64,000 bases of DNA, taken from positions 3,720,001 through 3,784,000 of the forward strand of contig NZ_PDBS01000001.1 in NCBI RefSeq assembly GCF_002572525.1. Direction: 5' to 3'. Origin of the DNA: Natrinema sp. CBA1119 (GTDB lineage: Archaea; Halobacteriota; Halobacteria; Halobacteriales; Natrialbaceae). This document shows positions 12,442-38,069 of the stretch, one piece after another. The notes beneath the pieces are model-generated. The model did not search any database, was not told where the DNA came from, and worked only from the letters and a program-made list of their open reading frames with translations. A program made the translations under genes and the position numbers. Within the stretch, counting starts at the first letter, position 1. Each line of letters starts with the position of its first letter.

Positions 12442-12442
12442 T

Positions 12443-20167: not shown

Positions 20168-20185
20168 ACCGCTCGTTTCACCCCT

Positions 20186-21461: not shown

Positions 21462-21512
21462 CGACGCCGACCGCTCACGACCGGTCAGGGGGTGGCGGTC
21501 CGCGAGTCGGCC

Positions 21513-23240
21513 TCACCACGACTCCCGCGTTCGCGCCCGTTCGCCGTCGGGAATCGTGAACGCGATCTCGGTACCCTCCCCGGGCTCCGAATCGATGTCG
21601 ATCGTTCCTCCGTGTTGTTCGACGATTTTCCTGCAGATCGCGAGCCCCATCCCGGTGCCCGACTCGGGGTCGGTGCCGGACCCCTGCGTGAAGAGATCGA
21701 AGACCCGATCGAGTTCGTCCGGTTCGATCCCGCTGCCGTCGTCGCGGACGCGGAACCGCCATCCGTCGTCTCCCCGACTCGCCGTCACGCGAATTTCCGG
21801 CGATCCGCTATCGGCGTGTGTCAGTGCGTTCTCCAGTAGATTCTGGAACAGTCGCCTGAGCAGGTGTTCGACGCCCGAAACGGTCGGCAGATCCCCGACG
21901 ACGACGGTCGCGTTTTGTTCCTCGATCTCGAACCGGAGCGCCTCGAGGACCGCCGAGACGACCCGATCGCAGTCGACCGAATCGAAGGCCGTCGCCGACG
22001 GCCCGATTCGGGAGTACTGTAACAACCCGGAGATCATCTCCTGCATCCGTCGATTGTTTCGCCGTGCGACCGCGATCAGTTCCTCGCAGTCCTCGTCGGC
22101 CGTCTCCTCGAGCGACTCATCGAGCAGGCGAAGGTAGTCTTCCGTCGTTCGTAGTGGTGCCCGAAGATCGTGTGAAATCGCCCCGGTAAACGCCTCGAGT
22201 TCGCGTTCCCGCCGCCGTCGTTCGGTGACGTCCCTGAGGACGAGTACCCATCCGACGATGTCGTCGCGTCGTCGGAGCGGTCGGGACCGCACGTTGAGAT
22301 ACTCCGTTCGTCCGGAGTCCGAGGAGAACTCGACCGTCCGACTCGACGCAGTAGTCACGTCGAGCGCCGGCAGTTCAGCATGGGCCGGTTGACCGACGAT
22401 GGACGCAGACAGTCCGAGCAACGAGTATGCGGTCTCGTTCGCGTGAACGATTCGCTCGGCCGAGTCGAGAACGAGGACGCCGTCCGGGGAGCGTTCGACG
22501 ACAGTCGAGTACGCGATCGGCGGGAGATCCAAGAGTTGGTACCTGAACGTCGCGATTCCGAGGGCGATGGACGAAACTGCTGCCGTGGCGGGCACGAGGT
22601 TGACACCGTCGTGGTCGAACGGTGCGACGCCGGCCGAGGTGAGGAAACTCGCGGTCATCGGCGTGACGATGGCGATCGCCAGTAGCGCGGCCTGTGGGAG
22701 ATAGGAACGGCCGAGACGGACGGCTTGGTGGGCGATGATTCCGAGCGCGAGCAGTGCGAGGGTCAACACGTACACATAACTGAGGACGACGTACGCCGGG
22801 CCGTTTTCGGCCCGCCAGACAACTAGCCCGTCGATCTTGACGATCCGCGTTTCGACGATAACGAGATCGTACGGGTTCGTAAAGAGAAGCAGCAAAAACG
22901 CGACAGGAACGACGAATAACCCGACGACGACGCGGCGACGCAGCCAGTCCGTTCGATCAGTGTACGCGAGCGCGAACAGGAGGAGCAACGGGGCGATCAA
23001 CTCGCTTCCAACGTACAGCAGTCTGTACAGCTGAAACTTCACTTCCGGGGTCGTACTCAGGAGTTTAATCGCCGAAAATCCGGTCCAGATAGCCACTGCA
23101 ACGTTCATCGTCCCGAATATGAGAAGTACTGGGCTGTGGCCGTGCTCACGTCGACTCCTGATCGCGTACGCCCCCAGACCGAGTGAGACAGCGGTCGCGA
23201 ACAGGATCGGATAGGCATATATCGTGTGCTGCCACCCCAT
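21513..23240 (-). CDS. Sensor histidine kinase with 7TM N-terminus and PAS domain
   Basis: A 575-residue kinase. Seven hydrophobic helices (about residues 5-225) form the N-terminal 7TM sensor domain. A PAS domain follows (about 230-340; SPDGVLVLDSAERIVHANETA). HisKA contains the phosphorylated His in TGAISHDLRAPLRT. The ATPase has an intact N-box (QNLLENALTHAD) and G-boxes (RDDGSGIEPDE, GTGMGLAICRKI). Unlike the two proteins to its left, it looks fully active and could be the phosphodonor for the intact receiver at 20343-21461. The ATG at 23240 is preferred over 23297 because a TATA box lies about 28 nt upstream. Confidence 0.88.
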   Translation of the reverse strand: MGWQHTIYAYPILFATAVSLGLGAYAIRSRREHGHSPVLLIFGTMNVAVAIWTGFSAIKLLSTTPEVKFQLYRLLYVGSELIAPLLLLFALAYTDRTDWLRRRVVVGLFVVPVAFLLLLFTNPYDLVIVETRIVKIDGLVVWRAENGPAYVVLSYVYVLTLALLALGIIAHQAVRLGRSYLPQAALLAIAIVTPMTASFLTSAGVAPFDHDGVNLVPATAAVSSIALGIATFRYQLLDLPPIAYSTVVERSPDGVLVLDSAERIVHANETAYSLLGLSASIVGQPAHAELPALDVTTASSRTVEFSSDSGRTEYLNVRSRPLRRRDDIVGWVLVLRDVTERRRRERELEAFTGAISHDLRAPLRTTEDYLRLLDESLEETADEDCEELIAVARRNNRRMQEMISGLLQYSRIGPSATAFDSVDCDRVVSAVLEALRFEIEEQNATVVVGDLPTVSGVEHLLRRLFQNLLENALTHADSGSPEIRVTASRGDDGWRFRVRDDGSGIEPDELDRVFDLFTQGSGTDPESGTGMGLAICRKIVEQHGGTIDIDSEPGEGTEIAFTIPDGERARTRESW

Positions 23241-23262
23241 TACGTGCTGAAACGTTACTCGA

Positions 23263-23274
23263 GGAATATATAGA
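23263..23274 (-). promoter_or_regulatory. TATA box of the 7TM sensor kinase
   Basis: On the minus strand tctatatattcc lies about 22-34 nt before the ATG at 23240, which places the upstream in-frame start at 23297 outside the transcript. Confidence 0.6.
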
Positions 23275-23588
23275 TACAGGTCGGTTACTGTCCTCAATTC
23301 GAACGAGATGTAGTGAGACGGTGCCTGTGTCTCGAACCGGGTACTCCGATGCGATTTCCGCTTTTCGTGGCACGGATGGCACCTCGGTGTGGTGGGACTA
23401 CCGTTGGTTCGGCGATGTTCGCGTCCCGGTATGTCGACACGGCTATCACACGGGTACCGGTGGCCACCTGAACGATTCCGAGACGAAGAATAGGTGCCCC
23501 GGAACGTTGCAGGACCACTGCGAAGAGAGCGGAATTACGCGTTTCACACGGACGAACACTCGGGGCTCGAGTTTGGACATGCAACTGC
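23275..23588. other. Intergenic region with no identified gene
   Basis: About 310 bp. Open frames exist on both strands but have no recognisable motif or haloarchaeal residue bias. Confidence 0.5.
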
Positions 23589-24284
23589 GGCATTGTTCAG
23601 ATTAGCTGGTTCCAGCAGTATGCGTAGCTCTGCAACCATGTTTCAGCGGTGGCTGGATCGGCGTTTCTAAAGCAGTTTTCGAACTGAGTGGTACGTCATT
23701 TTATCTCTTTAAATAGATGTTCGACGGCATTCTGATTTCCATGTTTCTCGTATCGAAATCGGAGCCCAAGATGATGGAGTGCGGCGTTAAGCCACGGAGC
23801 TGAATCGACAAGAAACACGGCATCTTGGATATCGTGTTTCTCTCTCAGTTCACTCAGAAACAGCTCCGTAAGTGCGGTTGTACGCGTTGGATAGAGTTTA
23901 ACGTGAAGAAATTCGTTCGTTCCAGGATCGACAGCAGCATACGACAGTAGCGCTGATCGTCGAGTTGGATCACAGTTTCGTCGAGCGCAACGTGATCCGG
24001 TTGGCTTCCCGTTGTCGGCTGTAGATTGGCTTTTTGTACCCAATTATGAATCGTCAATCTCGCCCATTCGACACCGAATCTCTCTAAGACAGAAACAGTA
24101 TCCGAAAATGATAATCTCGACAAATGGAGCTGGATACTCAATCGCATCAGCTCGCGCAGTGTCGCCTCTCGCTCCACAAAATCTAATTGAATGCCGCTAC
24201 TAGCGCCGTTAAGGCGGTTGAATTCGGGCATGGACACCTAGAATTCTGACCGCCTCGCTTTTCAGACCGTATCTGAACAGCGCC
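23589..24284. mobile_element. Degenerate IS6-family insertion sequence
   Basis: A 696-bp element. The left end reads GGCATTGTTCAGAT; the right end, on the other strand, reads GGCGCTGTTCAGAT, giving near-perfect terminal inverted repeats. The transposase inside is inactivated. No matching target duplication is visible at the flanks. The size fits compact IS6-type elements of haloarchaea (ISH14/ISH15-like), an identification made by recognition only. Confidence 0.85.
23597..24231 (-). pseudogene. IS6-family transposase, frameshifted with an internal stop
   Basis: The minus strand encodes MPEFNRLNGAS, then SDTVSVLERFGVEWAR, then DHVALDETVIQLDDQRY. The frame then breaks near 23955-23965 and resumes as YAAVDPGTNEFLHVKLYP through VDSAPWLNAAL to YEKHGNQNAVEHLFKEIK. 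There a TGA replaces an Arg codon (CGA), after which RTTQFENCF to WNQLI completes the protein. The DDE residues survive in pieces. Two lesions show it is long dead. Confidence 0.88.
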
Positions 24285-24343
24285 CTAGAATTCAGCCCAA
24301 AGGCTCTTATCAGAGGTGGTGTTAGTTACCGAACATATCTGAT

Positions 24344-24784
24344 ATGCCCTCTCGTCGCACTATTCTCAGCCTAATAGCGGTGAGTGGAATCGGAGGGATT
24401 GCCGGGTGTAGCGATGTGATTAGCGCAGAGATACCCGCGCACACTGTGAGTGTCTATTTGCATAATCGAAATGCTGTCCGTGATGTCACCGTCACGATCA
24501 AAGAGGATGATGGAGCGGTTGTGTTCGAACGAGACTACTCCCTTTCCGACGACAATGAAGCTCATGAGGACGCAACGTTCCCTGAGACAACCGACCCACA
24601 TACCGTCGTCGTGACTGTCGATGGAAAACAGTTTGAACAGCCGTGGCCGGAATTCACTGACCCGAACAATCAGTGTCCTAAAGGAAACTGGGAAGGTATC
24701 GAAGTCTGGATTAAAGGTGATCCGGGGGAATCCCCGACTATTCTTTTAATTGGAAATTGCCAACATGTTACGCTTGAGGAATGA
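24344..24784 (+). CDS. Small secreted lipoprotein of unknown function
   Basis: A 146-residue protein with a lipoprotein leader: twin-Arg-like MPSRRTILSLIAVSGIGG and lipobox IAGCSD with Cys at residue 22. The mature part is beta-rich (HTVSVYLHNRNAVRDVTVTI, then PHTVVVTVDGKQFEQ) and resembles the small single-domain lipoproteins abundant in haloarchaea. Base composition is AT-richer than the chromosome average, and it lies between a dead insertion sequence and the tRNA-linked element, so it may be acquired. No function can be assigned. Confidence 0.72.
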   Translation: MPSRRTILSLIAVSGIGGIAGCSDVISAEIPAHTVSVYLHNRNAVRDVTVTIKEDDGAVVFERDYSLSDDNEAHEDATFPETTDPHTVVVTVDGKQFEQPWPEFTDPNNQCPKGNWEGIEVWIKGDPGESPTILLIGNCQHVTLEE

Positions 24785-25229
24785 CGGTATCTGTCAAAAG
24801 AGTAAACACCATTTCTGAACGGTGTTCTATACACATCTTGTATTGATCACTTCCGTTCACAACAAACATCGTAGCGGATCTGCTTCTTTAAGTTCGATAA
24901 GGCGGCAGCCGCTAACGCACTCTGCGACTATCCACTGAAACAGGGAACGGTTCGATGACCTTGAGCACGTCCTTCTGAGCGAACCGTATCCCGTCACTGG
25001 GTTCGGACAAAAAGAAGTGCTGACTGCATGAAATCGAATCCACTTTTAGCAGAAAATCGCCAGACAACTCGGCTACACAGTCTTTCAAAACCAGTAAGAA
25101 GTCTTATTGGTTGGGGCGGATTTGAACCACGAGGACTCGCTTCGCTCGCCCTCTGGGCTCAAATCCGTCCGTTACAATTTTTCCGACCCGGACTCGTTAC
25201 TACGCTCCTCGTCGGTGCGTCGGAAAAAT
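24785..25229. other. Junction region left of the tRNA-linked element
   Basis: No gene found. It contains a partial third copy of the att sequence at 25109-25128 (ggttggggcggatttgaacc), with an imperfect inverted copy about 40 bp further on (ggctcaaatcc near 25157-25167). These look like remnants of earlier integrations at the same tRNA. Confidence 0.5.
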
Positions 25230-25262
25230 GGGTTGGGGCGGATTTGAACCGCCGACTTCCTC
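25230..25262. repeat. Distal attachment site, copy of the tRNA-Val 3' end
   Basis: A 33-bp sequence starting gggttggggcggatttgaac is identical to 35448-35480, the 3' half of tRNA-Val. It lies 85 bp before the first integrase start, as expected for the attL or attR of a tRNA-targeted element. Confidence 0.88.
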
Positions 25263-25346
25263 GCTCGCTCCGCTCGCAACCGCGTGATGGAGACTTCCTA
25301 ATCCAACGGTGTGAGCCAACCAACGCGGCGTTCCCGTCAGATAACA

Positions 25347-26357
25347 ATGACCGAACGCCAAACTCAGATGAAACCCGAACGGGCTGTGAACCGATTCCTC
25401 TCCGAGATGAAACCAGAGTGGGCTGAATCAACGTACTACAACTACAGCTCATCGCTCTCTCGATTCCTCGAGTTCTGCGAAGAAGACGACCTCGAGAACA
25501 TTTGCGATATCGACGGCTTCCACATATCCGATTTCAAATCCACTCGTCGGAATGACGGTATCAGCGAGATGACCCTCTACAACGAACTCAGTTCCCTCCG
25601 ATCGTTCCTGAAGTGGTGCAAGTCGATGGGACTCATTGAGTCGTGGGTGATCGAAGATATGGTCCTCAATGAACCGGACGATAAGGTTCGCTCTGACAAG
25701 CTGGACGCTGAGGAAGCAGAGATAATTCGCAACTACCTCAACCAGTTTGAGTACGCTACTCTTCGTCACACGCTGTTCGCGCTCTTGTGGGATACAGGAA
25801 TCCGACTTGGGACTGCCCGCTCTCTTGACGTGGATGACTACCATCCAGAGGAACAATACATTGAGGTGCAGCATCGTCCCGATCAGGGAACACCGCTGAA
25901 AAACAATTCCGAGGCTAATCGGGAGATCAATCTCCACTCGTGGGCATCCGAGATTCTTGACGACTATCTCCAAATGAACCACAAAGGAGTGACCAACGAT
26001 CACGATCGAGAACCCCTGTTAGCTTCCCGTCACGGTCGAATGTCTCTCTCCAACCTACGGATGCACATCCGTCGCCTCACCCGTCCGTGCCACTATACAG
26101 GGGATTGTCCTCATGGACGGGATCAAGACGAATGCGAAGCTGCCCTGGACTATCGTGCTGCTTCTCAGTGCCCTGGCTCTGTCAGTCCACATCCAATCCG
26201 ACGCGGGGCTATCACTCACTGGCTCAACGAAGGCCATCGGAAGGAACTGATCAGCGAACGGATGAACGTCGGCGTGAAAACGCTCGATGAACACTACGAC
26301 GCTCGAACTGAGTCAGAGAAGCGGAATCTACGACGAGAGATGTTCAAGATGGACTGA
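25347..26357 (+). CDS. Tyrosine recombinase (integrase) of the left element
   Basis: A 336-residue site-specific recombinase. The N-terminal SAM-like DNA-binding domain covers about residues 10-95. In the catalytic domain the first Arg lies in LLWDTGIRLGTA near residue 153, the H-x-x-R box in SPHPIRRGAIT, and the nucleophile Tyr in LDEHYDART near residue 313. A Cys-rich insert (CHYTGDCPHGRDQDECEAA) precedes the HxxR box, as is common in haloarchaeal integrases. The ATG at 25347 is used; an upstream GTG at 25311 is in frame. Adjacent to the att copy at 25230. Confidence 0.92.
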   Translation: MTERQTQMKPERAVNRFLSEMKPEWAESTYYNYSSSLSRFLEFCEEDDLENICDIDGFHISDFKSTRRNDGISEMTLYNELSSLRSFLKWCKSMGLIESWVIEDMVLNEPDDKVRSDKLDAEEAEIIRNYLNQFEYATLRHTLFALLWDTGIRLGTARSLDVDDYHPEEQYIEVQHRPDQGTPLKNNSEANREINLHSWASEILDDYLQMNHKGVTNDHDREPLLASRHGRMSLSNLRMHIRRLTRPCHYTGDCPHGRDQDECEAALDYRAASQCPGSVSPHPIRRGAITHWLNEGHRKELISERMNVGVKTLDEHYDARTESEKRNLRREMFKMD

Positions 26358-26636
26358 GGAAAAGGGTCAAGCAAGATTTGAACAGATCTCGCTGTCTCTC
26401 CCCAAGGGTTCGACCGCCCAAAACCACCTTACACATTTGGATTTTTGTAGAACTATCTCGTCGCCTTCTTGCGAATACCGGTATCTATTTCCCTGTGGAT
26501 GCCGTCTATACAGTGAAGACAAGTTCTCGCGGAACTCTCCAACCGACCAGTCACAACTATCGGGTTCCTCTTAGGGTATCGCCACATCGAGGGGAGAGTA
26601 GAACAGACCGCTGAGAGTCTTCATTATCTCTGACTT

Positions 26637-28292
26637 ATGAGTATAGATACATCCACAGCGGCATCTCCGAGCAGTACAGAGACAACGTCGAACAGCGACT
26701 ACTGCGCGTGCATCCAGTATGGTTTTCCTGAGGGGAAGGGGCCGCTTCGAGCGCCGAAACTCCGAACGATTTTCGAGCCGATTCCCGATGAAGCCCATAC
26801 CGCCAGCCCCATCTACAAAATCTCGAGAGAGCAGTATGAACGTCAACGGGATATGGAAAACCCCTACCTGGTCGATGGTGGCTACTCGATGAAAGCCACA
26901 GAGATACAGGACGAGTGTGAGGACGATGACCGCGTACTCTGTCCCGTTCACATTGAGTCCGACGCATACCACGAGGTGGGACCGGATACGCTTATCACGT
27001 GGTTTCGGGAGTTCGTAGAGGACTATCTCGAAGCACCGTTCAACACGTGTACGCTGTACTTCTCGGGGAATCGTTCCATCCACGTTCACGTTCCCCGGTT
27101 CGTATCGGGGGAAGCCGACCGGGAGCGGTTGAAGGAACTGGCCAAGTTGTACTGCGATGAGGCGAGGGCTGAACTCGACATCAGTGTTTACGATCGGAAA
27201 AGTTTGTTTCGAATTCCCAGCGTAGAACACGCAAAGTCCGGCATCCCAAAGGTCGAAATCGAACCGACTTGGGACAGAACCCGCATCTTCCGTAAGGCAA
27301 ACGGAGCGAACCCAAGCACGCCTGCAACGTATGCTGATGTACTGTGGGATGTGTTCGGGCAGGAACGCCTCACTGTCGGGACAATTGGCCCTGAAATGAA
27401 CCGGTCGCAGAATCTGTTTCAGGTGCTTGACCCCGAGAAGACGCTCTTGGAGTTCACACGCGATGAACCGGAGAACGAGATCGAGACTCCCCTCATCGAG
27501 CAGGTGGCGTATCCCGAAGACCCCGCTGAAGTTCCGGAGTGGTCGATGTACAACGCACACGAGTTCTCTCCATATGCTCACGCATCAGGAAACCCTCGAA
27601 GTGTCGCGGCGCTTCGCGTGAAAGGCGGGGTGTTCGCTCGAGAGAACAAGCGTTGTGGGGCGACGATGGTGCCAGCGTACTTCTACGGTGCTGTTGGGTG
27701 TAACGGTGGGTTCACGAAACAGGACGTTCACGCGCCGCTCCAGTTGTCGAAGAAGGACTACCGCAAGTGGGACTACGAACACGGGGAAAAGGTCGTCATC
27801 ATCGGCGGGAAAAGCGGGAGTTCCAGAATCTTCAGCGTCTCCTCGTGGGAAGCCACCGAAGTTGGCCACGCGCTCACAAGCGATAAGGGCGGGCGTGACA
27901 CCGCGCTCAACTATCTCTCCGAGAAGGGATACGATGTTGGTGCGTCTGGTTCCACGGTGTCCGGCTCGAAGTGTACGACTGCATCAAGGTCGAATGAGTT
28001 TAGCAGAGAGACAGGAACAATATGGCCTGCTCGTGAGAATTGGGGGACGGACGTGGAAGGCCTCCAATGGAAAGCCGAACAGGAGGGGATTGGAACACTC
28101 TCACATAAGGAGCGGATCCGTGTTGCGTGCCGCTTTCTTCAGAACGGCTGGCAACCGACTTGGGAGTGGTTCAAGGAGCAGTACGGCTCCACGTTCAAGC
28201 CGAGGATTACATGGCAATTCCTCAGGGGAATAGTCGAAGACCCCGACTTCAGGGAGTACGACAACGTGGACGTACCCCCAAAACCCACGTGA
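26637..28292 (+). CDS. Archaeo-eukaryotic primase-like replication protein
   Basis: A 551-residue protein. The region at about residues 85-205 resembles the small-subunit (AEP) primase fold: TLYFSGNRSIHVHVP matches the S-G-x-R-x-H motif II, and KSLFRIPSVEHAKSG followed by PKVEIEP matches the later Arg/Lys nucleotide-binding segment. The first acidic motif (VHIESDA) is only approximate. The C-terminal 250 residues are unassigned and have Cys and Trp residues typical of mobile-element proteins. It probably initiates replication of the excised element or primes DNA synthesis. Confidence in AEP membership is moderate and rests on motifs alone. Confidence 0.6.
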   Translation: MSIDTSTAASPSSTETTSNSDYCACIQYGFPEGKGPLRAPKLRTIFEPIPDEAHTASPIYKISREQYERQRDMENPYLVDGGYSMKATEIQDECEDDDRVLCPVHIESDAYHEVGPDTLITWFREFVEDYLEAPFNTCTLYFSGNRSIHVHVPRFVSGEADRERLKELAKLYCDEARAELDISVYDRKSLFRIPSVEHAKSGIPKVEIEPTWDRTRIFRKANGANPSTPATYADVLWDVFGQERLTVGTIGPEMNRSQNLFQVLDPEKTLLEFTRDEPENEIETPLIEQVAYPEDPAEVPEWSMYNAHEFSPYAHASGNPRSVAALRVKGGVFARENKRCGATMVPAYFYGAVGCNGGFTKQDVHAPLQLSKKDYRKWDYEHGEKVVIIGGKSGSSRIFSVSSWEATEVGHALTSDKGGRDTALNYLSEKGYDVGASGSTVSGSKCTTASRSNEFSRETGTIWPARENWGTDVEGLQWKAEQEGIGTLSHKERIRVACRFLQNGWQPTWEWFKEQYGSTFKPRITWQFLRGIVEDPDFREYDNVDVPPKPT

Positions 28293-28751
28293 TACTCGCC
28301 CTCCTACTGTAACTATCTGCATAGACGGCATCCACTATCCACGAGGAACGTGACTACTTCACCCTACCTCGATGAATGGTTACACCACTTTTTCTTCAGT
28401 CCCCATACCACCACAACAACCACCACTAAGTTATGTTGCGAGAACGCGGTACTGCGACGGGGTACCTCTCGTCGGTGCTGATGTTTCTTATAAAGGGATT
28501 AGTAGCTTCAATCAATTCATTTCTCCAAGAGGTAATGACGCGGTCAGCGTGCGCCAACAACAGGCTGGTCACGCCGTCCAAATGTTCCGTGATGATTCCC
28601 CGGTGGCACGTTGTGGATCCCCATAAGAGGAAGGTGCGAGCCTACTACGAGTCTCCATACTCCCCGTTTTCCTATTCCCAACACCCGTGGATTTCGATGA
28701 TCCTGGCAAGTGGGTTCCAACCTCAAAGTGGTCGAACACCTGTGATACCTT
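28293..28751. other. Region of the element with no identified gene
   Basis: About 460 bp downstream of the primase-like gene. No frame has recognisable protein features. Confidence 0.45.
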
Positions 28752-28978
28752 CATCGAGTCGGTTGTTCTTCCCGCCCCTCATGCAGTAGATCGTCTGGTA
28801 GTTCCTCGTAGAGATTGGGTCGGATCTCACAGTATCGCAACGCCGATTGTGAGTTCCCCCTCACCCCTTCGACAGCCTGGTGAGATAGTTTGTGGTAGTG
28901 GCGGGCCTCAGCAACGTTGTCACCGTCCTCGATGCAGCAAAACCTTCAGACAAACCTCACGGACTCATTGTGAATTAA
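28752..28978. repeat. Module repeat R1 (decayed gene end)
   Basis: About 227 bp homologous to 30209-30437 (R2) and in its first 50 bp to 31852-31900 (R3). Shared blocks include gagtcggttgttct, agttcctcgtagagat and gagatagtttgtggtagtgg. On the minus strand R1 keeps HYHKLSHQAVEG and, after a 1-nt shift, NLYEELP, so it is a degraded gene 3' end. R1 and R2 diverge from one another by many substitutions. Confidence 0.75.
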
Positions 28979-29003
28979 GCTAATTGGGTTTCCGTCAACG
29001 GGC

Positions 29004-29705
29004 CTATATCATGCTGATCAACTGCAGTATAATTCCGAAAACTGCGAATCCACTCAATATAGTTGCTGTAGCGATTAACAGGCGATGCCGTTCAGGCCAA
29101 CTCGACACATGAAACTTTACTGATTCTTCCTCCATCCAGAACGTAGCACCATCACGGTAAACAAATGTCATTTCCACCTGGTGGTTACCAGGTGATGCTG
29201 AGTCAAGGTTAAGACTAATGTGCATTGGTGCGGGTCCAAGAGCTTCAAAATCTCCGTTATTTCTTCCCTCATCTGTATCCTTGTTCCCCAGATTCTTGCT
29301 TATCTTTGTCTCGGACACATTCATTGGATAGACCATTTCTGACTGCTCTGGACTTTCACCAAAGTCTGGAGAAACATTGGCAAAGAACCATTCAGGGAGG
29401 GTGGATGTGAAGCCCACGTACGATATGTTAGCATCTATTTTTTCTTCGGCCTCATTGATACCCACTAATTCAACTGTATCCTCTTGGTCTGTCTCTCTGT
29501 ATCCATATCCTGATTTCACTACCCCCACATTCTCATCATCAAGAATAGATTGATCTGGTAGTATTACTTGAAACTTATTAGGAAATGGTGTTCCTACTCC
29601 GCTAAAATAGAGATCTATATCAACAGTGCCATTTGGGGGTACATTCGGTTCCTGAAGTACTGATATTAGCCTAAAACGAGTATTCGGAAAATGTTGTTCT
29701 GCCAT
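29004..29705 (-). CDS. Unknown protein with a C-terminal membrane anchor
   Basis: A 233-residue protein encoded by AT-rich DNA. It has no signal peptide. The body is beta-rich (TVDIDLYFSGVGTPFP, HISLNLDSASPGNHQVEMTF). Residues about 208-230 form one hydrophobic helix (LLIATATILSGFAVFGIIL), placing it as a tail-anchored or C-terminally anchored protein. It lies between module repeat R1 and an integrase remnant, the position of a captured cargo gene. No family recognised; a defence role is only a possibility from context. Confidence 0.6.
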   Translation of the reverse strand: MAEQHFPNTRFRLISVLQEPNVPPNGTVDIDLYFSGVGTPFPNKFQVILPDQSILDDENVGVVKSGYGYRETDQEDTVELVGINEAEEKIDANISYVGFTSTLPEWFFANVSPDFGESPEQSEMVYPMNVSETKISKNLGNKDTDEGRNNGDFEALGPAPMHISLNLDSASPGNHQVEMTFVYRDGATFWMEEESVKFHVSSWPERHRLLIATATILSGFAVFGIILQLISMI

Positions 29706-29777
29706 GATCAGACCCTTGCGTTCCCTCTACTAAAGGTTATAGATATATCTAACATAAAGGCATAAAATATATTTCAG

Positions 29778-29990
29778 CTAAATTGCCCGGAGATACTCTT
29801 CATGACGTTCCATCTTTTCACTCTTTGTCACATGGTCGTGGTGCTTATCTAATACATCGATAGCCATATTAACCAGATCAGCAGTTACATCTTGAGGTTG
29901 GACAGCATTCAGTGCTTCTGTTACGTATCCATGACAGAGTGCGTGCGGGCCGACTGAATCGCAAGAATAGATACCTGAAATCCGCTCGAG
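29778..29990 (-). pseudogene. Integrase C-terminal remnant 1
   Basis: On the minus strand about 70 codons read DSVGPHALCHGYVTEALN through VLDKHHDHVTKSEKMERHE to a stop at 29778. It aligns with the H-x-x-R and Tyr boxes of the intact integrases, but Arg is replaced by Cys and the catalytic Tyr by His. It lacks an N-terminus. Confidence 0.8.
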
Positions 29991-30208
29991 AAACTCATAA
30001 TCTCTCTAAGCAGGTAACCAAATATACGCGTTCGAAACGACCTTCATTGTTCTAACTGCAGTCTTGTGGGGCCATCTTTGGTAGGCGTAATCTCATTCTT
30101 TCGATGTATCAAACACTGCTCTCTCGTCCAGATCTCGGCGTAGAATTGGCGCTGTCTCTTGCTGTCGTTTCCAATGATAGCCTACGTAGCTGTCTGTATG
30201 GTTCACTG

Positions 30209-30437
30209 CATTGAGTCGGTTGTTCTTCCCAACCCTCGATGCAGTAGATCACTCTGGAAGTTCCTCGTAGAGATCGAGATGGATCTCATATAGGATTGCG
30301 ACGCCGACCGTGAGTTCGCCCTCGGTCCTTCGACAGACTGGGGAGATAGTTTGTGGTAGTGGTGGCTTCCATCGACGTTACCCCCGCCTCAATGCCGCAA
30401 AATCTTCGGAAAAACCTCATGGATTCATCGCGAATTC
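30209..30437. repeat. Module repeat R2 (decayed gene end)
   Basis: About 229 bp homologous to R1. On the minus strand it keeps HYHKLSPQSVEG and, in the adjoining frame, ELTVGVAILYEIHLDLYEELPE then stop, which appears to be the ancestral C-terminus. It lies between integrase remnant 1 and the nuclease gene. Confidence 0.75.
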
Positions 30438-30470
30438 ACTTGGGCAGTTTTAATTCACATGAAGTGATAT

Positions 30471-31457
30471 ATGCGTGCAGCTAAGATGGGTCTCTATATG
30501 CAAAACCCGCAGAAGTTGAAATCTTCATTACAAGAATTGAGTGCAAATCGTTTCGAAGAATTTGTTGCCTCGGTATGGGACTCAATGGGATGGGAAACCA
30601 AAGTAACGCCATCTGGTCGCGATAAAGGAATTGACATAATTGCGACAAGGGAAGGTATCGTTGATGAGAAGGTCTTGATACAGGCTAAACGGTATAGTCC
30701 GGGCAATAAGGTGGGGAGACCAGCCATTCAACAATATAACACCCTCCAACAGCAGGTACCCGATGCCGATTCAGTAATTGTAGTCACTACCTCCAGATTT
30801 ACAACGGAGGCACTTGAGCTCGCAAAGCAACTCAATATCAAGACTATAAATGGGAATAATATTTCAGAAGCCGCAATTGACCATATTTCGAAGGAAGACC
30901 TAAAACAAGTAATCAGCAAGTCTACTACCAATACAAAACAGGAGAATTCAGCCAGACCAAATGAAGTTTCAACGGAGGAACTTTCAGAGTCGGAGGAGGA
31001 CCTTGCTCAGGTTTATCAAGTCTACTTTCGGAGGTTGAGGGAAGCAATTAGCCAGTCCGAACAAAGAATCCTCTATTTCGATATTAACAGAGAAAGCGGA
31101 GACACAAGTGAATACTCTGTCATGGGTACCATGCATAAAGTGAAGTTTTCTTCTGACAATCCGGAAATTTGGCTAAAATTTCAGAAAACTGCAAAAACTT
31201 ATGGATGGGTGATAGCTCTGAGTGAAGCTTATGGTAGCGGTGCTGGAGGTGTGGAGATGGTAATGCCGCCAAAGGAATCGGACACATTCTATTTAGCAAT
31301 TGAAACTGAACGCGGAGAGCGTATCTTACCACAGCGTCAAGCCAAAATATCAAGTTTGATACTGGAACATATTTATGACCAACCTTTATCCGGAACTGAA
31401 GTTACAGATATGTCGCAAAACCACGGCAAAGAACTATACACAAGGGTTGTTAAATAA
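30471..31457 (+). CDS. Mrr-type restriction endonuclease-like protein
   Basis: A 328-residue protein. Residues about 20-130 form an Mrr_cat-type endonuclease fold: NRFEEFVASVWDSMGWETKV, then the catalytic GRDKGIDIIA and VLIQAKRYS (D-x-n-Q-x-K), then VGRPAIQQYNTL and VIVVTTSRFT. The enzyme type cuts modified or foreign DNA. The C-terminal 150 residues are unassigned, with a Glu/Ser-rich linker near residue 165-185 and no recognised target-reading domain. DNA is AT-rich. ATG codons at 30471, 30486 and 30498 are all possible starts. It is flanked by R2 and integrase remnant 2, so it is a cargo gene, likely for defence of the element or host. Confidence 0.82.
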   Translation: MRAAKMGLYMQNPQKLKSSLQELSANRFEEFVASVWDSMGWETKVTPSGRDKGIDIIATREGIVDEKVLIQAKRYSPGNKVGRPAIQQYNTLQQQVPDADSVIVVTTSRFTTEALELAKQLNIKTINGNNISEAAIDHISKEDLKQVISKSTTNTKQENSARPNEVSTEELSESEEDLAQVYQVYFRRLREAISQSEQRILYFDINRESGDTSEYSVMGTMHKVKFSSDNPEIWLKFQKTAKTYGWVIALSEAYGSGAGGVEMVMPPKESDTFYLAIETERGERILPQRQAKISSLILEHIYDQPLSGTEVTDMSQNHGKELYTRVVK

Positions 31458-31479
31458 ATTAGCTATGTGTCTAAAAATA

Positions 31480-31664
31480 CAGTCTTCTCTTCGTTCCATC
31501 TTTTCCTCCCTCGTTGCAGGGTCATAGTGCTTGTCTAAGACCTCTATCGTCATGTCCACTCGATTTGCAGTCACCTCTCGAGGTTGGCCAGCATTCAGTG
31601 CTTCTGTCACGTACCCTCGACGGAGTGCGTGTGGGCCAGCTGAACCCGAACATTTGCTTGCCAT
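31480..31664 (-). pseudogene. Integrase C-terminal remnant 2
   Basis: The minus strand reads MASKCSGSAGPHALRRGYVT through VLDKHYDPATREEKMERRE. It keeps the H-x-x-R and Tyr boxes but has no N-terminal domain. Its frame runs on into the 3' end of the nuclease gene, stopping at 31434. It is more similar to remnant 1 than to the intact integrases. Confidence 0.8.
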
Positions 31665-31851
31665 ATTGTAGGAGGTTCTTCACACCCCTCGATGCTTCGA
31701 TTCATTGATAGTCTGTGCATCTACCTACCGGTAGCTTCGTGCCAAACGGGTCTGGTGAAAACCTGAGTCTCAGTCAGAAATCTCGCTGGACAAGTTACCA
31801 AATATACGCCCAAGTATGCGCAGTGAATGTTCTATCCGGGCGTTTCACATC

Positions 31852-31900
31852 ATTGAGTCGGTTGTTCTACCACCTGCCTCAATGCTGTAGATCACTTGAA
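31852..31900. repeat. Module repeat R3 (partial)
   Basis: About 50 bp beginning cattgagtcggttgttct, matching the start of R1 and R2 and keeping the block with atgc-gtagatcac. Between remnant 2 and R3, and between remnant 1 and R2, a shared segment ending accaaatatacgc also survives (near 31790 and 30008). Confidence 0.6.
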
Positions 31901-32156
31901 GTCCCGTGTTGAGTTTGAAATAATGCTCTCGAGGAATCCAGCATTAGTCATAGATACGTCGCTAATTCGAGAAGGGGGAGATTTTTGCTTATTAACGCGC
32001 ATTATAGCATTCCCGCAACTACTTGTTGAGTAAGGGAACGCCGTACTGCGATTCCACACAGAATTGGGAAGCGACTCAGTGAATTGCTGGAGGAGTGCAA
32101 GACGAATATGCCACCCTCTGGTGGTTTGCTACTTCACGCGAACGAAGTGAGCGAGT

Positions 32157-32183
32157 GGGTTGGGGCGGATTTGAACCGCCGAC
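32157..32183. repeat. Internal attachment site
   Basis: A 27-bp copy of the tRNA-Val 3' end starting gggttggggcggatttgaac. The sequence just before it (ttcacgcgaacgaagtgag at 32133-32151) also precedes the tRNA copy at about 35424-35442, so the duplication extends beyond the tRNA. It marks the boundary between the two tandem elements. Confidence 0.85.
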
Positions 32184-32239
32184 GCCGCCCTTCGCTCCGC
32201 TCCGGGCGGTTGCTCCCCTATGGTGGACTACGATACCAA

Positions 32240-33283
32240 ATGGCAACCACCAACCCGAAACGGCTCGCAGAGCTATTCATCAAGGACCGAACCGGCGAAA
32301 AGTCGAAGTCAACCCTCTACAACAATCAAGGCCATCTACGCCAGTTCTGTGACTGGTGTGAAGAAAACGAGATTGACTCCGTCCGTGATCTTGGCGGAGA
32401 AGACTTTCTCGAGTATAAATTCCATCTACGGCAATCTGTTTCAGATTCTACCATCAGGAACCACTTCAGTACTCTACGCACTTTCTTTAAATTCTGCTAT
32501 CGTATTGATGCGACAGAAAAAGGGCAGGAACTTGCCACTAAGTTAGAAACACCAGACTTTGCTAAGGGTGACCTCTCCCGCGACATATTGATGGATTTTG
32601 AAGAGGTGAATCGGTTACTGGATTACCTCAGTAAGTTCGAATATGGAACAAAAAAGCACATCACCTTCCTAATATTCTGGCATACAGGGTGCAGACGTGG
32701 CGCACTACGAGGTTTAGATATATCTGATTATGCACCATGCAAAGAGCGGGAACACGGTACATATGCTCTCTTGACCTTCAAGCACCGGCCAGAAACAGGG
32801 ACTCCGCTGAAGAACGGAAAAGAAGGAGAACGCGAAGTTATGATTTGGCCAGAGTATGCAGAAGTGATTGAAGATTATCTCGAGATGAAGCGCCGAGATA
32901 TACAGGACGAACATGGTCGAAAGCCACTTGTGACCGGTCCTAATGGACGCCACTCTAAATCGAATATTCAAGCGCTTATCTACGCTCTTACCCGTCCTTG
33001 CTACTACGCTAATGACTGCCCCCACCAACGGGATGAAGAGGAGTGCGAGGCAGCTTACTACGAATCAGCATCAAAATGTCCATCCTCATTATCACCACAC
33101 CCAATGCGACGAACATCTATCACATACCACCTTGACCAGAAAAATTGGACATATGAAGCAGCCTCTGGGAGATTTGATGCATCAGTGAGTGTCTTGAAAG
33201 AACATTACGACGAATCAACAAAGGAGGGTCAAAGAAAAACAAGAGCCTCACAGTTCTTTAAAGGAGATCAATCTACATTGTAG
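32240..33283 (+). CDS. Tyrosine recombinase (integrase) of the right element
   Basis: A 347-residue recombinase related to the left integrase. The core-binding domain covers about residues 8-100. The catalytic Arg lies in WHTGCRRGALRG near residue 155, the H-x-x-R box in SPHPMRRTSIT, and Tyr in LKEHYDEST near residue 325. The same Cys-rich insert is present (CYYANDCPHQRDEEECEAA). The ATG at 32240 is 56 bp past the internal att site; the longer frame to 32084 is att sequence. DNA is AT-richer than for the left integrase, suggesting a separate origin. Confidence 0.92.
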   Translation: MATTNPKRLAELFIKDRTGEKSKSTLYNNQGHLRQFCDWCEENEIDSVRDLGGEDFLEYKFHLRQSVSDSTIRNHFSTLRTFFKFCYRIDATEKGQELATKLETPDFAKGDLSRDILMDFEEVNRLLDYLSKFEYGTKKHITFLIFWHTGCRRGALRGLDISDYAPCKEREHGTYALLTFKHRPETGTPLKNGKEGEREVMIWPEYAEVIEDYLEMKRRDIQDEHGRKPLVTGPNGRHSKSNIQALIYALTRPCYYANDCPHQRDEEECEAAYYESASKCPSSLSPHPMRRTSITYHLDQKNWTYEAASGRFDASVSVLKEHYDESTKEGQRKTRASQFFKGDQSTL

Positions 33284-33357
33284 GGATAGAATACTTGTAA
33301 CTAAGAAAGTATCTAAATAAGCAACATTTTTCTATTTGACACTGTAATAAGCATGAA

Positions 33358-34137
33358 ATGGGGAAGAAATACCCATCAGATTGGGATAGAAGGCGAAAGG
33401 AGGTATATAAACGTGACAACTACACCTGTCAGAGTTGTGGCGCTCGAGGAGGTCCACATGGAGACGCAGAACTTCATGCACACCATAGCTTAGCCATAAG
33501 CAAGGGAGGACCTCACAAAAAGTCAAATCTTATAACTCATTGCGAGGAATGTCACAGAAAAATACATAACAATAGTTCTACCGGACGAACTACTGCTCGA
33601 AAAATAACAATCGAGAACTCAACCACCTTTAGTGAGCGACAAGAATACTGGATATATACGTCAATAATACTATCGCCTGCAATTCTAATCTTAATATCAT
33701 CACTCTACTCGGGGAGTATTAGGCTTATTATTATAGGAACAATAACCAGTGTGATATTCACTGGTATTACTATTTATATTTGTGGTGCGACTGCATATGA
33801 GAACTATACTGCATTAAAAACTATTGACTCATCTGGCCGTTGGGACTACACAATGGAGCTTATGGAAGATGGTCAACAATGTTTAGAACAGAAAGAATGG
33901 TTAGAGGCAAAACGCTACTTTCGGAGAGCATCAGAATCTTACGCGCGAATCTACAAAAATAACAAGAATGAGAATTCTTTAGAGAGCCAAGCAGCAAAAC
34001 AGTGGTTCGAGGTTGCAAAACGCCGTTCATATATGTGTTCTGACCTCTATAAAGGAAGAAATTCTCGAGCAAAAGCAGAACAAAAGAGAGCTAATAAACT
34101 AACTGAAGAGATCCACCAATCATCTTTGAATGACTGA
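33358..34137 (+). CDS. HNH nuclease with transmembrane segment and helical tail
   Basis: A 259-residue protein with an unusual layout. Residues 8-75 form an HNH nuclease with a zinc knuckle: YTCQSCGARGG, HAHHSLAISKGG, and NLITHCEECHRKIH, which includes the expected His, Asn and His plus two CxxC motifs. Two transmembrane helices follow at about 98-145 (SIILSPAILILISSLY and IIIGTITSVIFTGITIYI). The last 100 residues are helical with TPR-like character (CLEQKEWLEAKRYFRRASESYARI). Tethering a nuclease to the membrane suggests action on entering DNA or in an abortive response; this is inference. A TATA-like tctattt lies about 24 nt upstream. Confidence 0.72.
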   Translation: MGKKYPSDWDRRRKEVYKRDNYTCQSCGARGGPHGDAELHAHHSLAISKGGPHKKSNLITHCEECHRKIHNNSSTGRTTARKITIENSTTFSERQEYWIYTSIILSPAILILISSLYSGSIRLIIIGTITSVIFTGITIYICGATAYENYTALKTIDSSGRWDYTMELMEDGQQCLEQKEWLEAKRYFRRASESYARIYKNNKNENSLESQAAKQWFEVAKRRSYMCSDLYKGRNSRAKAEQKRANKLTEEIHQSSLND

Positions 34138-35446
34138 TTTATTGAGGTAGCTGATGGCATATTAGAAAGATGTGTTCCTTGGAACAGGCTGGAAGGGGGC
34201 AGAACAGATTCACCCTATTATAGCAAAAACATAGAATTTCTCGAGTCGGGTTACGTTACCTGTCTATTCTTGCTACGAGTTCATGTTCTAACCTCCAAGA
34301 ACTTCCAATTCCTCCTGGTAGAACTAAGTCTGTGGCACAGTAGGATCATATACCAGAATTCTTAACATACTATCTGATAGATCAATATGGGCGGAGATAC
34401 TTGAGAATGATTTCTTGAACATACAGATAACATCTACTAATAATTTAGAAAACTCACTCAACAAATCTGTGGGCGTTCTGAGAGCTTTTTCCACTCGAGA
34501 CAATGAAAACCATTCACGGTTTTATGGAGTGGCATAGGCGGCGACTGAGGCACCTTAAAATTGATTTGACCGGGTGGGTTCTGCCCTGATATAGGAATAG
34601 AATGGATTTCAGCTAAAATATTGTCTCTTGTAGTAGCCTAATAGTCTACTTCTGTACTTCTGCTGTAGTAGCGTAACAGAAGGAAGTAGTACTGTAGTAA
34701 AGTCTGGAAGCATAGTACAACAACAGTACAGCATACAGCAACGTACAGCAACAGTACAGCTTACAGCACAGCAACGTACAGCGTACTATAGTAAAGTCTG
34801 GAAGCATAGTACAGCAACAGTACAGCTTACAGCACAGCAACGTACAGCAACAGCACAGCCTACATTGCTCTGTTACTCCCTACCGGATAACAGAAGGATG
34901 TATTCTTTTCAGCAGTGACTATATTCGGAGTATACAGTGGCTCCATCATACTCCTTATCCCGCATCATTATATAATATTTTAGACTGTTTAGTGTTATTA
35001 TAATATTTATTACATAGTGTGGGAATGGCTTCTCGACTATATTTAGTTAACCTCTGGCATTCTATTCCAAGGGGTTCTGATTCCAACATCGTATTATTAT
35101 CAGTAATAACATAGATTGTTGCATCTATACAGACTGGAAGGGGTATAACAAGGTCCCTCAATGAAAATTCCTGCCTGAAGGAACCAGAGAAACATGCTTC
35201 GGGCACTTCCAGACTTCATTAAGATACCACCGGGTCAGTCTACTTTTTAGAAGCTATCACAGTGTTCACTGAAATTCTATTTTTGCCTGTAAGGGAGAAA
35301 CACTTATCTATGATTCTTCCTTTAGCCAAACCACCATACGGGAGTGATGCCCGAGAAGCGACTTAATGGGTTCACTGATGGAGAAACCGGCTCTATTAAG
35401 AGGGTCGCTACGCCGTCTGTGGGTTCACGCGAACGAAGTGAGTGTA
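34138..35446. other. AT-rich non-coding end of the right element
   Basis: About 1.3 kb without a supportable gene. It contains the repeat tract at 34691-34862 and several short inverted AT-rich segments. Because the replication-like gene lies in the other element, this stretch may hold a replication origin or regulatory RNA of the right element; neither is shown. Confidence 0.5.
34691..34862. repeat. 94-bp direct repeats built of acagca/gtacagc microrepeats
   Basis: The block tagtaaagtctggaagcata starts at 34695 and again at 34789, a 94-bp period. Each is followed by strings such as gtacagcaacagtacagc. The whole tract is made of near-identical 6-12 bp units with almost no G+C bias of the host. 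The arrangement resembles iteron arrays more than coding DNA. Confidence 0.7.
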
Positions 35447-35520
35447 TGGGTTGGGGCGGATTTGAACCGCCGACTTCCTCCGTGTGAAGGAGGTATCATA
35501 ACCAACTAGATCACCAACCC
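35447..35520 (-). tRNA. tRNA-Val (anticodon CAC)
   Basis: A 74-nt cloverleaf on the minus strand. The acceptor stem is GGGTTGG paired with CCAACCC plus discriminator A. The anticodon arm is CCTCC-TTCACAC-GGAGG with CAC at 35486-35484. The T-arm is GGCGG-TTCAAAT-CCGCC. Its 3' half is the integration target for the adjacent elements and is reconstituted intact. No intron. Confidence 0.95.
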
Positions 35521-35560
35521 GCACGAGGAAATTCCCGTGCGTTTGACTTAAGGCTTCCTT

Positions 35561-35827
35561 TCAGCGATCGTCCGCAGCCACCCTCGAGCGGCCCACGCGG
35601 TCACGCGCGGAATCGAGCGCTGCGAAAACCCTCGTTTCGGCTCGTCGCTCGAGGTCGGTCACGTCCTCGCGGACCCGGTCGATGCGGCCGGGTTCCGGGT
35701 CGCGCTCTCGGCCGAGCAACGATCGGACCCGATCCGTGACCCCGTCCATCTGCTCCATTACGCCGAGTCGAGCGTGCTCGGCGGCTCGTCGCAGGTAGTA
35801 CAGGCTGTCGTGGAAGTGTTTGTTCAT
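35561..35827 (-). CDS. Small conserved haloarchaeal helical protein (DUF7553-like)
   Basis: An 88-residue soluble protein starting MNKHFHDSLYYLRRAAEHA, followed by charged helices with GRERDPEPGRIDRVREDV. This N-terminus and the EPGRID segment are familiar from a widespread haloarchaeal family (DUF7553, by recollection) of unknown function. The start at 35827 is preferred over an ATG five codons upstream because the family begins with this Met. Confidence 0.7.
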   Translation of the reverse strand: MNKHFHDSLYYLRRAAEHARLGVMEQMDGVTDRVRSLLGRERDPEPGRIDRVREDVTDLERRAETRVFAALDSARDRVGRSRVAADDR

Positions 35828-36227
35828 GTGACACTCTCCCATAGAGAGGCCGGACGAGAATATAGTTCTTTCGCGGACGACAAAATTCGAGCGTGCGGTG
35901 CAGCAGCGTCGTGACAGGATCTCGAGCCGGTGAGTGAAGTGACCCGGGTTCGCGAACGGCTACCGTGGTCGTCCGCTCGAGCCCGAGCGTTCGAAGCGGA
36001 TGGAATCTCGGGCTCGAGCAGCCCGTGTCGCACGGCAGCATTCGACAACCCAGATCCGACGATAACGGGCGTTTCACCCGGTAACACTTCCGTTAGCGAG
36101 ACTATATCGGGTTCGGATACGAACCAGCTAACGTAATGCGACTACTATCGCGACTCGAGGCGCAGACCCGACTGCAGCGGAGTCACTCACGACCATCGAC
36201 GACCTCGCGGACGGCGGTGAGTCGCTG
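35828..36227. promoter_or_regulatory. Upstream region of the DoxX gene with nested inverted repeats
   Basis: Most of this 400-bp interval holds no gene. At 36091-36133, arms cgttagc and gctaacg enclose a TATA-like actatatcgg and an inner hairpin ggttcg-gata-cgaacc. Just after it, a 30-codon frame starts at the ATG at 36136 and ends in TGA overlapping the DoxX ATG as TGATG. Confidence 0.45.
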
Positions 36228-36644
36228 ATGGCGTTCGAGAGCGGCATCGGCGCGGCGCTCCTGCTCGCCGGGCGACTCCTGTTCGGTGGTCTCCTCGTGT
36301 ACCAGGGACTCAATCACTTCGTGGCGACGGAGATGCTGTCCGGCTACGCGCAGTCGAAGGGGGTTCCCGCGGCCGGGTTCGGCGTCGTCGCGTCGGGCAT
36401 GATACTGGTTCTCGGCGGGTTCGGCATTGTCTTCGGCGTCTATCCAGTCGTCGCCGCGGGGATGCTGGCCGTGTTCTTCCTCGTCGTGACGCCGTTCATG
36501 CACGACTTCTGGGCGGTGCCCGAGGACCAACGGCAAGGCGAGATGACCCACTTCCTCAAGAACGTCGAACTGCTGGGCGCGTCCCTGATCGTGCTGGTCA
36601 TCGCCGGCGAGACGTGGGGCTACGCGTTGAATATCGGTCTGTAA
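36228..36644 (+). CDS. DoxX family membrane protein
   Basis: A 138-residue integral membrane protein with four helices: about residues 8-27, 50-70, 72-92 and 113-133. The conserved start AGRLLFGGLLVYQGLNHF and the PAAGFGVVASGMILVLGG segment match the DoxX/DoxD-like family. Haloarchaeal members are usually annotated as small membrane proteins of uncertain role; quinone-linked thiosulfate oxidation is known only for distant relatives. The ATG at 36228 is the only start in the frame. Confidence 0.85.
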   Translation: MAFESGIGAALLLAGRLLFGGLLVYQGLNHFVATEMLSGYAQSKGVPAAGFGVVASGMILVLGGFGIVFGVYPVVAAGMLAVFFLVVTPFMHDFWAVPEDQRQGEMTHFLKNVELLGASLIVLVIAGETWGYALNIGL

Positions 36645-36788
36645 CCCGTCCGGACAAACGAAGTCGTCTCTGCGGCCAGTAGAGAGAGCGTATTGACCGA
36701 AACCCAGTCCGCACGCCGTGTCGACCGGCGACGAAATCCAATCTGTTTTGGAGGGCAGTTCAAGCAGTCGGTCGTCAACTAGTGGAGT

Positions 36789-36983
36789 ATGGCAACGAAC
36801 GAGACGGCCTCTGGCTCCCGAGAGCGGAAACGGTTCCTCGTGGAATGCAACGGCTGTGGGTACGAGCAATCAGCAGACGGCCGCGACGAAGCGACCCGAA
36901 TCGGAACCGACCACCGACGAGAGACGGGACACGATCTCGTCGCTATCGAATTACCGCCGATGACCGAAACCGAGCGCTCGTAG
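36789..36983 (+). CDS. Small protein with a single CxxC and His pair
   Basis: A 64-residue protein, FLVECNGCGYEQSADGRDEA followed by GTDHRRETGHDLVAIELP. Cys-x-x-Cys with two later His residues (H-x6-H) suggests a small zinc finger. The composition and context are typical of conserved haloarchaeal micro-proteins. No partner or role is known. Confidence 0.65.
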   Translation: MATNETASGSRERKRFLVECNGCGYEQSADGRDEATRIGTDHRRETGHDLVAIELPPMTETERS

Positions 36984-37113
36984 TTCCACGCCGTTCGGGG
37001 CCAGACGCGGGCCGCGATGAGACGATACTGATCGAGCCGATATCGAGTGCCAGAGCCGTCGTCTCGAAAATAGCTGCCACGGAAATCAAAGCCGATTTGC
37101 TGACCGGTTGCAC

Positions 37114-37647
37114 CTAGTAGTCCGGCGCGTCTTCCGGTTCACCGTCGCGAGCGTTAACCACGCGAGCGAACGTGAACAGGCCGTCCGAGAGCCGGTTGAG
37201 GTACTGGACCGCATCCTCGTTGATCTCCTCCTCGCCGGCGAGCGCGACCGCCCGCCGCTCCGCTCGCCGACAGACCGTGCGAGCGTGGTGAAGCGCCGCC
37301 CCGTGTTCGCTACCGGTCGGGAGGATGAACGAGGTCAAGGGCTCGAGTTCGTCGTCGTACTCGTCGATCCAGTCCTCGACGGTCTCGACGTGATCGGGAC
37401 GGACCGCGGGGTCGTCCTCGTCCGGATCGGGATTCGCGAAGTCCGCCTGAACGACGTGGAGGTGGTTCTGGATCGACGCCAGCCGATCGTCGATATCGTC
37501 GTGGTCGGTCGGTCGGATCGTCCCGAGCAGGGCGTTGAGTTCGTCGACGGTCCCGTAGGCCTCGATGCGGGCGCTGGACTTCGAGACGCGAGTCATGTCT
37601 CGAAGATCCGTCTGCCCGTCGTCGCCGCGACCGGTGTAGATCGACAT
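37114..37647 (-). CDS. Cob(I)alamin adenosyltransferase, PduO type
   Basis: A 177-residue enzyme that transfers the adenosyl group of ATP to reduced corrinoid to make coenzyme B12. Family motifs are TGRGDDGQTDL at the N-terminus, VSKSSARIEAYGTVDELNAL, and FILPTGSEHGAALHHARTVCRRAERR. The Arg/Glu pair in the last motif contacts ATP. The fold is a trimeric helical bundle with full-length size. The start at 37647 is chosen because residues upstream are not conserved. No cobalamin genes are adjacent. Confidence 0.92.
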   Translation of the reverse strand: MSIYTGRGDDGQTDLRDMTRVSKSSARIEAYGTVDELNALLGTIRPTDHDDIDDRLASIQNHLHVVQADFANPDPDEDDPAVRPDHVETVEDWIDEYDDELEPLTSFILPTGSEHGAALHHARTVCRRAERRAVALAGEEEINEDAVQYLNRLSDGLFTFARVVNARDGEPEDAPDY

Positions 37648-37779
37648 GGCTGAACCGACGGAGGGATCGCACTTAACTTCCCTGTCACTCAACGCGCCGC
37701 GAGTCGCGTCCACTCCGGAGATTCGATTCAGGGCTCGAAAATCAGTACGTTAAACTCGCTTCGCTCTCTTGGGTCACGT

Positions 37780-37956: not shown

Positions 37957-38069
37957 CTTCGGTCCCGAAACCGACCGGCTCGGCTCGCGTTTTCTGCGGA
38001 GTTGTCTGTTGATCGCCCTCCTGTCGTTGAACCGTACGACAGAACGAAGACCGCGAACCGATCGATCGC

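Follow-up and report, generated by a model that had tools for sequence, protein, structure and literature searches.

Introduction

Tandem accretion of tRNA-targeted integrative elements, and composite genomic islands, are known from bacteria (for example, PMC4891358; PMC8978831). For archaea, a modular evolution of mobile elements by homologous recombination has been described, with tandem integration proposed to favour the exchange (PMC8371274), and SSV-type 'suicide' integrases are associated with gene capture and with integrase fragments left at tRNA genes (She et al., as cited in PMC8371274). The entry and exit of single cargo genes in small archaeal integrative elements is poorly documented. 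Here we analyze a 64-kb stretch (the window; G000:C1:3720001-3784000, coordinates without a locus name being window positions) of the 5.06-Mb haloarchaeal genome of Natrinema sp. CBA1119, where two tandem elements, A and B, lie at a tRNA-Val(CAC) gene and element B carries repeated units that each combine a short repeat (R) with a cargo gene and an integrase 3' end. Stepwise accretion of cargo in this island is well supported, and the DNA still reveals in part in which order the genes were acquired, each gained gene having kept the tail of a donor integrase as a scar. We consider it probable (roughly 60%) that the units of integrase 3' end and cargo were moved by recombination between elements that differ in tRNA specificity.

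Among known frames, the closest is the modular evolution through homologous recombination among tandem-integrated archaeal elements (PMC8371274), with which the island shares the swapping of modules between elements that have backbone genes in common; here, however, the module bears a recognisable tag, the integrase 3' end, and cargo has changed repeatedly in one defined slot. As in bacterial tandem accretion, elements are stacked at one tRNA gene with att copies between them and with decayed integrases, and A and B form such a tandem, whereas the inner scars consist of integrase 3' ends only, differ in tRNA specificity and each accompany a single cargo gene, not a whole element with att. The SSV integrase is split at an att inside the gene; the intact relatives of our relics are unsplit and of full length, with the att upstream of the start codon, and the fragments found here comprise the final 45-90 codons and lie at a distance from any att. 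The gene structure of these intact clade members thus excludes an SSV-type split integrase. With integrons the island shares a row of cargo genes next to a gene for a tyrosine recombinase, arranged as repeated units. Its repeats, in contrast, are gene relics of 150-300 bp, a repeat scan of 24000-38000 revealed no attC-like array among them, and the integron integrase model TIGR02249 reached 26.5 bits against an NCBIfam cut-off of 265, so that the integrase type together with the missing attC sites excludes an integron.

Results

Repeated units in element B

Element B (25228-32183) consists of the integrase gene intB, a primase-like gene (rep), R1, cargo 1, integrase relic 1, R2, an Mrr gene, integrase relic 2, R3, a conserved tail and att, with the series of repeats, cargo and relics spanning 28744-31960 and this att and a live integrase lying beyond it. 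An original prediction, made from the sequence without database searches, had proposed the order R1, cargo, integrase remnant, R2, cargo, integrase remnant, R3, att, live integrase, had contrasted it with integrons, and had explained it by serial integration with 5' loss at one tRNA gene. Self-comparison of 24000-37000 and analysis of the repeats bear out this order, as well as the reality of the unit and its stepwise addition. R1 and R2 (28749-28976 and 30206-30436) are 80% identical over 232 bp (E 5e-50), R2 and R3 (30190-30280 and 31832-31921) 74% over 92 bp (E 1e-9), and the two relics (29765-29958 and 31452-31644) 73% over 196 bp (E 3e-30).

All three R copies lie on the minus strand (R1, 28744-28985; R2 with its 3' flank, 29999-30450; R3 with its 3' flank, 31733-31960) and match the R profile with E-values of 4-5e-42, 8e-52 and 6e-18, respectively. 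They had been taken for a decayed gene end; relics they are, but of a whole minus-strand small gene (~65-80 aa) plus its 3' flank, which comprises a palindrome and TTACCAAATACGCGC. Intact minus-strand copies of 65-90 codons occur at several related loci (L038, L042, L045, L049 and L050; for instance L038:9586-9837 and L042:9682-9882), with products such as MARRALLTDRERELIKGG...DVEVLRENHPDLYAELHEVVCE, and match phrog_26393 (function unassigned) and small genes of tailed haloviruses. Likewise, the segment accaaatatacgc noted behind each integrase remnant is present (29999-30029 and 31779-31809), but it belongs to the 3' flank of R, which R1 lacks. R2 carries an insertion of ~130 bp within its flank (about 30060-30190). 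An internal deletion and a frameshift common to R1, R2 and the R copies of loci L008 and L009 identify these as copies that had already decayed, and in the R tree the four form a group (100/100) apart from R3, which we read as the native R of the tRNA-Val element and which groups with the R of L044 (81/91). The R profile has strong full-length matches at many other haloarchaeal loci; class-wide, matches were found in 20 of 391 Halobacteria genomes, some to the 3' flank alone, and at most of the R loci retrieved there is an element with a tyrosine recombinase in the vicinity of tRNA-Val, -Lys or -Ala, in many cases accompanied by the primase-like gene seen here.

A reading of R as structured RNA or as a recombination site was dropped, the intact copies encoding a small protein. 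As a separate observation, a motif around CCCTCGATGC (31676-31700, 30221-30245 and, inverted, 26578-26604) is common to the R palindrome, the integrase gene near codon 250, which is one of the two zones of scar breakpoints, and the region before the primase-like gene.

Cargo 1 (29004-29705, minus strand) is an open reading frame for a 233-aa protein with a C-terminal membrane segment that falls into no family, and cargo 2 (30471-31457, plus strand) encodes an Mrr-type restriction endonuclease (PF04471, E 9e-27) that matches the PADLOC candidate PDC-S02 (E 3e-19) and type IV restriction models (mREase_IV, E 2e-11). Cargo and scars are AT-rich, with 42% GC in the cargo and 45-49% in the relics against 60% in the window. 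A role of the cargo in defence is plausible from these matches. Close relatives of cargo 1 and Mrr that might mark their donors were found neither in congeners (28 checked for cargo 1) nor in the family, where the best match reached 47% over part of the protein. The stop codon of cargo 2 abuts the stop region of relic 2, and at L008 and L009, too, cargo ends 0-3 nt from the integrase stop.

Origin of the integrase relics

Both relics lie on the minus strand; relic 1 (29779-29962) has kept codons ~275-334 and relic 2 (31460-31715) codons ~251-334 of a 334-codon integrase. At the amino acid level they are 75% and 85% identical, respectively, to the C-terminus of the intact integrase of L008 (int8), a locus of the same genus, as compared to 21-42% to the two live integrases of the window. 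The integrase beyond the inner att (32240-33283, plus strand) is indeed intact, as predicted, but it belongs to a second element (A, 32133-35474) and, at 21% and 38% identity, is not the parent of the relics. Both relics thus derive from one SNJ2-type integrase clade and from neither live integrase. In intB, intA (the integrase of element A) and int8, PF02899 (SAM-like N-terminal) and PF00589 (catalytic) stretches are found, and over the full length int8 shares 38% identity with the SNJ2 integrase, its identity to SNJ2-group virus integrases being 37-39%. The likeness to SNJ2-type haloarchaeal (pro)viruses and plasmids, which extends to insertion at tRNA 3' ends, rests on this integrase similarity; in contrast to those (pro)viruses, the rep gene had no match in the phage collection, and no viral contig with a relative of int8 was found. 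Structural genes of pleolipoviruses were not recognised either, no search aimed at them having been made.

The seven closest other intact integrases (70-78% amino acid identity) and that of L008 all adjoin a match to the last 31-34 nt of tRNA-Ala (8 of 8 checked). In a tree of integrase 3' ends, the relics of the window, L009 and L037 form with the L008 integrase a clade (100/100) nested inside the tRNA-Ala integrases and away from the tRNA-Thr group. Given this placement and the att of the intact members, the relics at tRNA-Val descend from a lineage with tRNA-Ala as its present-day target. The repeat scan of 24000-38000 found no tRNA-Val or tRNA-Ala end separating the relics from the next R, all copies of tRNA ends lying outside 28752-31912.

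The same slot with other cargo

Modules of R and an integrase end with other cargo had been suggested as something to look for in other haloarchaeal tRNA islands, and they were found, at tRNA-Val in L009 and L037 and as a single unit at tRNA-Ala in L008. The latter locus is ordered tRNA-Ala, rep, cargo, R, two small cargo genes, integrase (minus strand) and att, and is thus a single-unit version of the window series with its integrase complete; rep, R, cargo, intact int8 and att stand there in the ancestral order. At L009, from another genus, positions 12356-13056 are 87% identical over 706 bp to window 31482-32183, covering relic 2, R3, the tail and the tRNA end, and between R and the relic stands a DUF2971 gene (PADLOC PDC-S31, E 2e-17) in place of Mrr. 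Identity amounts to ~0.8 in the relic and 0.83-0.98 in R3 and the tail, with none in the cargo, as expected if cargo and part of the flank had been exchanged. L037, from the same genus, has an intB 93% identical to that of the window and a helix-hairpin-helix cargo of the L008 type (88% amino acid identity), followed by an int8 scar that is 96% identical to L008 int8 over 162 nt and then by the Val tail. It is a direct hybrid of the tRNA-Val and tRNA-Ala element types. L044, L168 and L178 have the Val right end (R or an R fragment, tail, tRNA-Val) and no integrase relic.

Two further observations were made at these loci. At L168:887-2060 (minus strand region; G067 C1 about 545400-546600), a gene that is Fic-like by a motif seen by eye occupies the cargo position directly before the R fragment and the tRNA-Val tail, with no integrase relic. 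At L008:12481-12979, the 10-nt motif ATTGTGAATT stands at the right edge of R and again between the two cargo genes, at the very point where homology with the cargo of L037 sets in; the second copy is possibly a leftover second R copy or a cassette boundary.

Integrase scars in other elements

Scars joined to cargo that elsewhere abuts an intact integrase amount to three cases. In L034 (Salinibaculum litoreum), an int8 scar stands behind an intact integrase of a different type and is itself followed by cargo 91% identical to a gene beside the intact int8 in L083, with homology unbroken from integrase codon ~276 through the cargo. In L035 (Haloarcula japonica), an unrelated integrase at tRNA-Leu precedes an int8 scar and a Schlafen/AlbA-type cargo 91% identical to a gene beside the intact int8 in L084, here with unbroken homology from codon ~289. 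L224 has an intact intB-type integrase with a scar directly behind it, and L085 and L221 contain stacks of cargo, scar and cargo. The scars start at codons 275, 251, 250 (the same event as 251), 282, 282, 246, 276-280, 277 and 289 of 334, so that six of nine breakpoints fall within codons 275-289, around the HxxR box (codons 280-283).

Outside the tRNA-Ala clade, L222:6754-9411 (G019) holds a decayed integrase, one cargo gene and a second integrase C-terminus of another type. An enrichment of orphan C-termini in the tRNA-Ala clade (6/13 versus 0/50, Fisher p 3e-5) was not used as evidence and was discarded, because the query and the E-value limit would miss short scars of more distant clades, of which L222 is one.

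Further features of the tRNA-Val region

The integration site, tRNA-Val(CAC), lies at 35447-35520 on the minus strand (ARAGORN), and direct repeats of its 3' end mark both ends of each element (25228-25262, 32133-32183 and 35424-35480). The left att of element B (25228-25262, plus strand) is identical to 35446-35480 at 35 of 35 positions. The att copy separating the stacked elements (32133-32183, plus strand) is 94% identical to 35424-35474; at L009, which has no element A, the junction of tail and tRNA-Val is unbroken. An integrase adjoins one end of each element, intB at 85 bp and intA at 57 bp from att. intB (25347-26357, plus strand; PF02899, PF00589) is an intact SNJ2/XerC-like tyrosine recombinase that is 93% identical to that of L037, as mentioned, and 91% to that of L044, both of them tRNA-Val elements. 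The rep gene (26637-28292, plus strand) shows weak PriS similarity (PF01896, E 0.05), a match to the primase phrog_16345 (E 2e-9) and 55-80% identity to its counterparts in L008, L036-L038, L040 and L049. The right tail (31961-32132) is 82-91% conserved in L009, L037, L044, L168 and L178, always immediately before the tRNA-Val end. Element A contains, besides its integrase, which is supported by Pfam, an HNH endonuclease cargo (33358-34137, plus strand; PF01844, E 1.5e-8) and near its right end an AT-rich part (34689-34881) with short tandem repeats of GTACAGCA-type units.

In the closest relative (G073, locus L165), tRNA-Val is free of both elements. Its match to the window runs up to 10187; beyond this lie an ISH-like remnant (window 23589-24163) and then tRNA-Val, and the ~13 kb within 10187-25228, outside both tRNA-Val elements, are thus likewise variable. 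At a distance of 100-250 bp before tRNA-Val, many congeners (L170, L183-L189) carry additional short stretches of its 3' end, which record small earlier insertions. In plasmids, the island was matched closely over only 1% of the query, apparently in the tRNA neighbourhood.

Discussion

The arrangement probably arose from a tRNA-Val element of the order intB, rep, R, tail and att by the gain of two units, each with an R, a cargo gene and an integrase 3' end. The donors would have been related elements that shared rep and R and had a tRNA-Ala integrase just past the cargo (R, cargo, int8, attAla; compare L008). The two element types were most likely joined by homology in the shared R, with a circle or an integrated copy as the possible substrate, and the redundant integrase 5' part, the donor att and the donor rep would then have been deleted, the integrase 3' end staying behind as a scar between units. 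Since R on the left and the integrase stop codon on the right would both serve as homology arms, the slot between them could be refilled.

Several points weigh against this account. The original tRNA target of the relics is deduced solely from their clade, and R3 has a left flank that looks Val-type, yet also the internal deletion of R1 and R2, which blurs the distinction between native and donor R and kept us from taking R3 for a clear Ala/Val hybrid. Intermediates in which a tRNA-Val element still contains the donor's complete integrase, att and rep were not found. In L034, L035 and L083-L089 there is no R, and R-based homology therefore cannot explain the scars of these loci; homology in R is thus not the sole route, as scars occur behind intact integrases in elements without R. 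A homologous crossover within integrase genes would produce chimeric genes and not a scar that follows an intact integrase.

The original prediction had each newcomer integrate beside tRNA-Val, the previous integrase losing its 5' part and att and leaving its 3' end, R and cargo. Element A is truly a second tandem insertion at the same tRNA gene, as its att shows, the stacks in L085 and L221 are compatible with such a course, and G073 demonstrates the tRNA gene without the island. As an explanation of the relics, however, serial integration at this one tRNA gene is not supported: they nest in a clade whose members target tRNA-Ala, between a relic and the next R neither an Ala-type nor a partial att is left, and relics of the same clade stand right behind intact unrelated integrases (L034, L224) and at tRNA-Leu (L035). 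In the window it would call for lost integrases with a specificity unseen in any intact relative examined. We regard it as rather unlikely, and it keeps this much weight because the N-terminal parts of the relic integrases, which would reveal their specificity, are lost.

Less likely still, and in our view improbable, is a duplication in situ, in which one unit was doubled at tRNA-Val and the cargo of one copy then replaced. The units do stand in direct order, and R1 and R2 pair weakly in the R tree (83/35), but at 73% nucleotide identity the two relics are as distant from each other as each is from L008 and L009, their breakpoints differ (codon 275 versus 251) and the cargo genes are unrelated. 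A dedicated cassette system, in which the R edge and the integrase 3' end were recombinase sites for cargo cassettes, would agree with the close spacing of cargo and integrase stops, with the clustering of breakpoints around the HxxR box and with the second ATTGTGAATT at the start of L037 homology. This repeat is, however, a single 10-nt case, the breakpoints differ without a structured site in common, and most of the pattern is explained by homologous recombination in conserved sequence, which makes such a system very improbable. That R is an ordinary dispersed repeat in a coincidental arrangement can practically be dismissed, for although R-type genes occur in several halovirus and element families, a search of the whole genome with R2 returned just three copies, all in the island, and the same order recurs in three other genomes.

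Tentatively, and as a possibility rather than an expectation, a standing cargo slot may exist right behind the integrases of haloarchaeal tRNA elements, in which the integrase 3' end would serve as a recombination platform and cargo, often candidate anti-virus genes, would move across tRNA specificities attached to the final 45-90 codons of the donor integrase, breakpoints lying preferably near the HxxR box. A limited search of open-access text returned no description of an integrase-end tag, an absence that proves little. The island stands for the present as a well-recorded case of modular evolution, a variant of the known process whose traces are unusually easy to read. Every gene gained came with a datable tag identifying the type of donor, and these tags reveal traffic between elements that target different tRNAs. 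An orphan integrase 3' end beside a gene thereby provides a simple signature by which cargo, candidate defence genes among it, can be located in other genomes.

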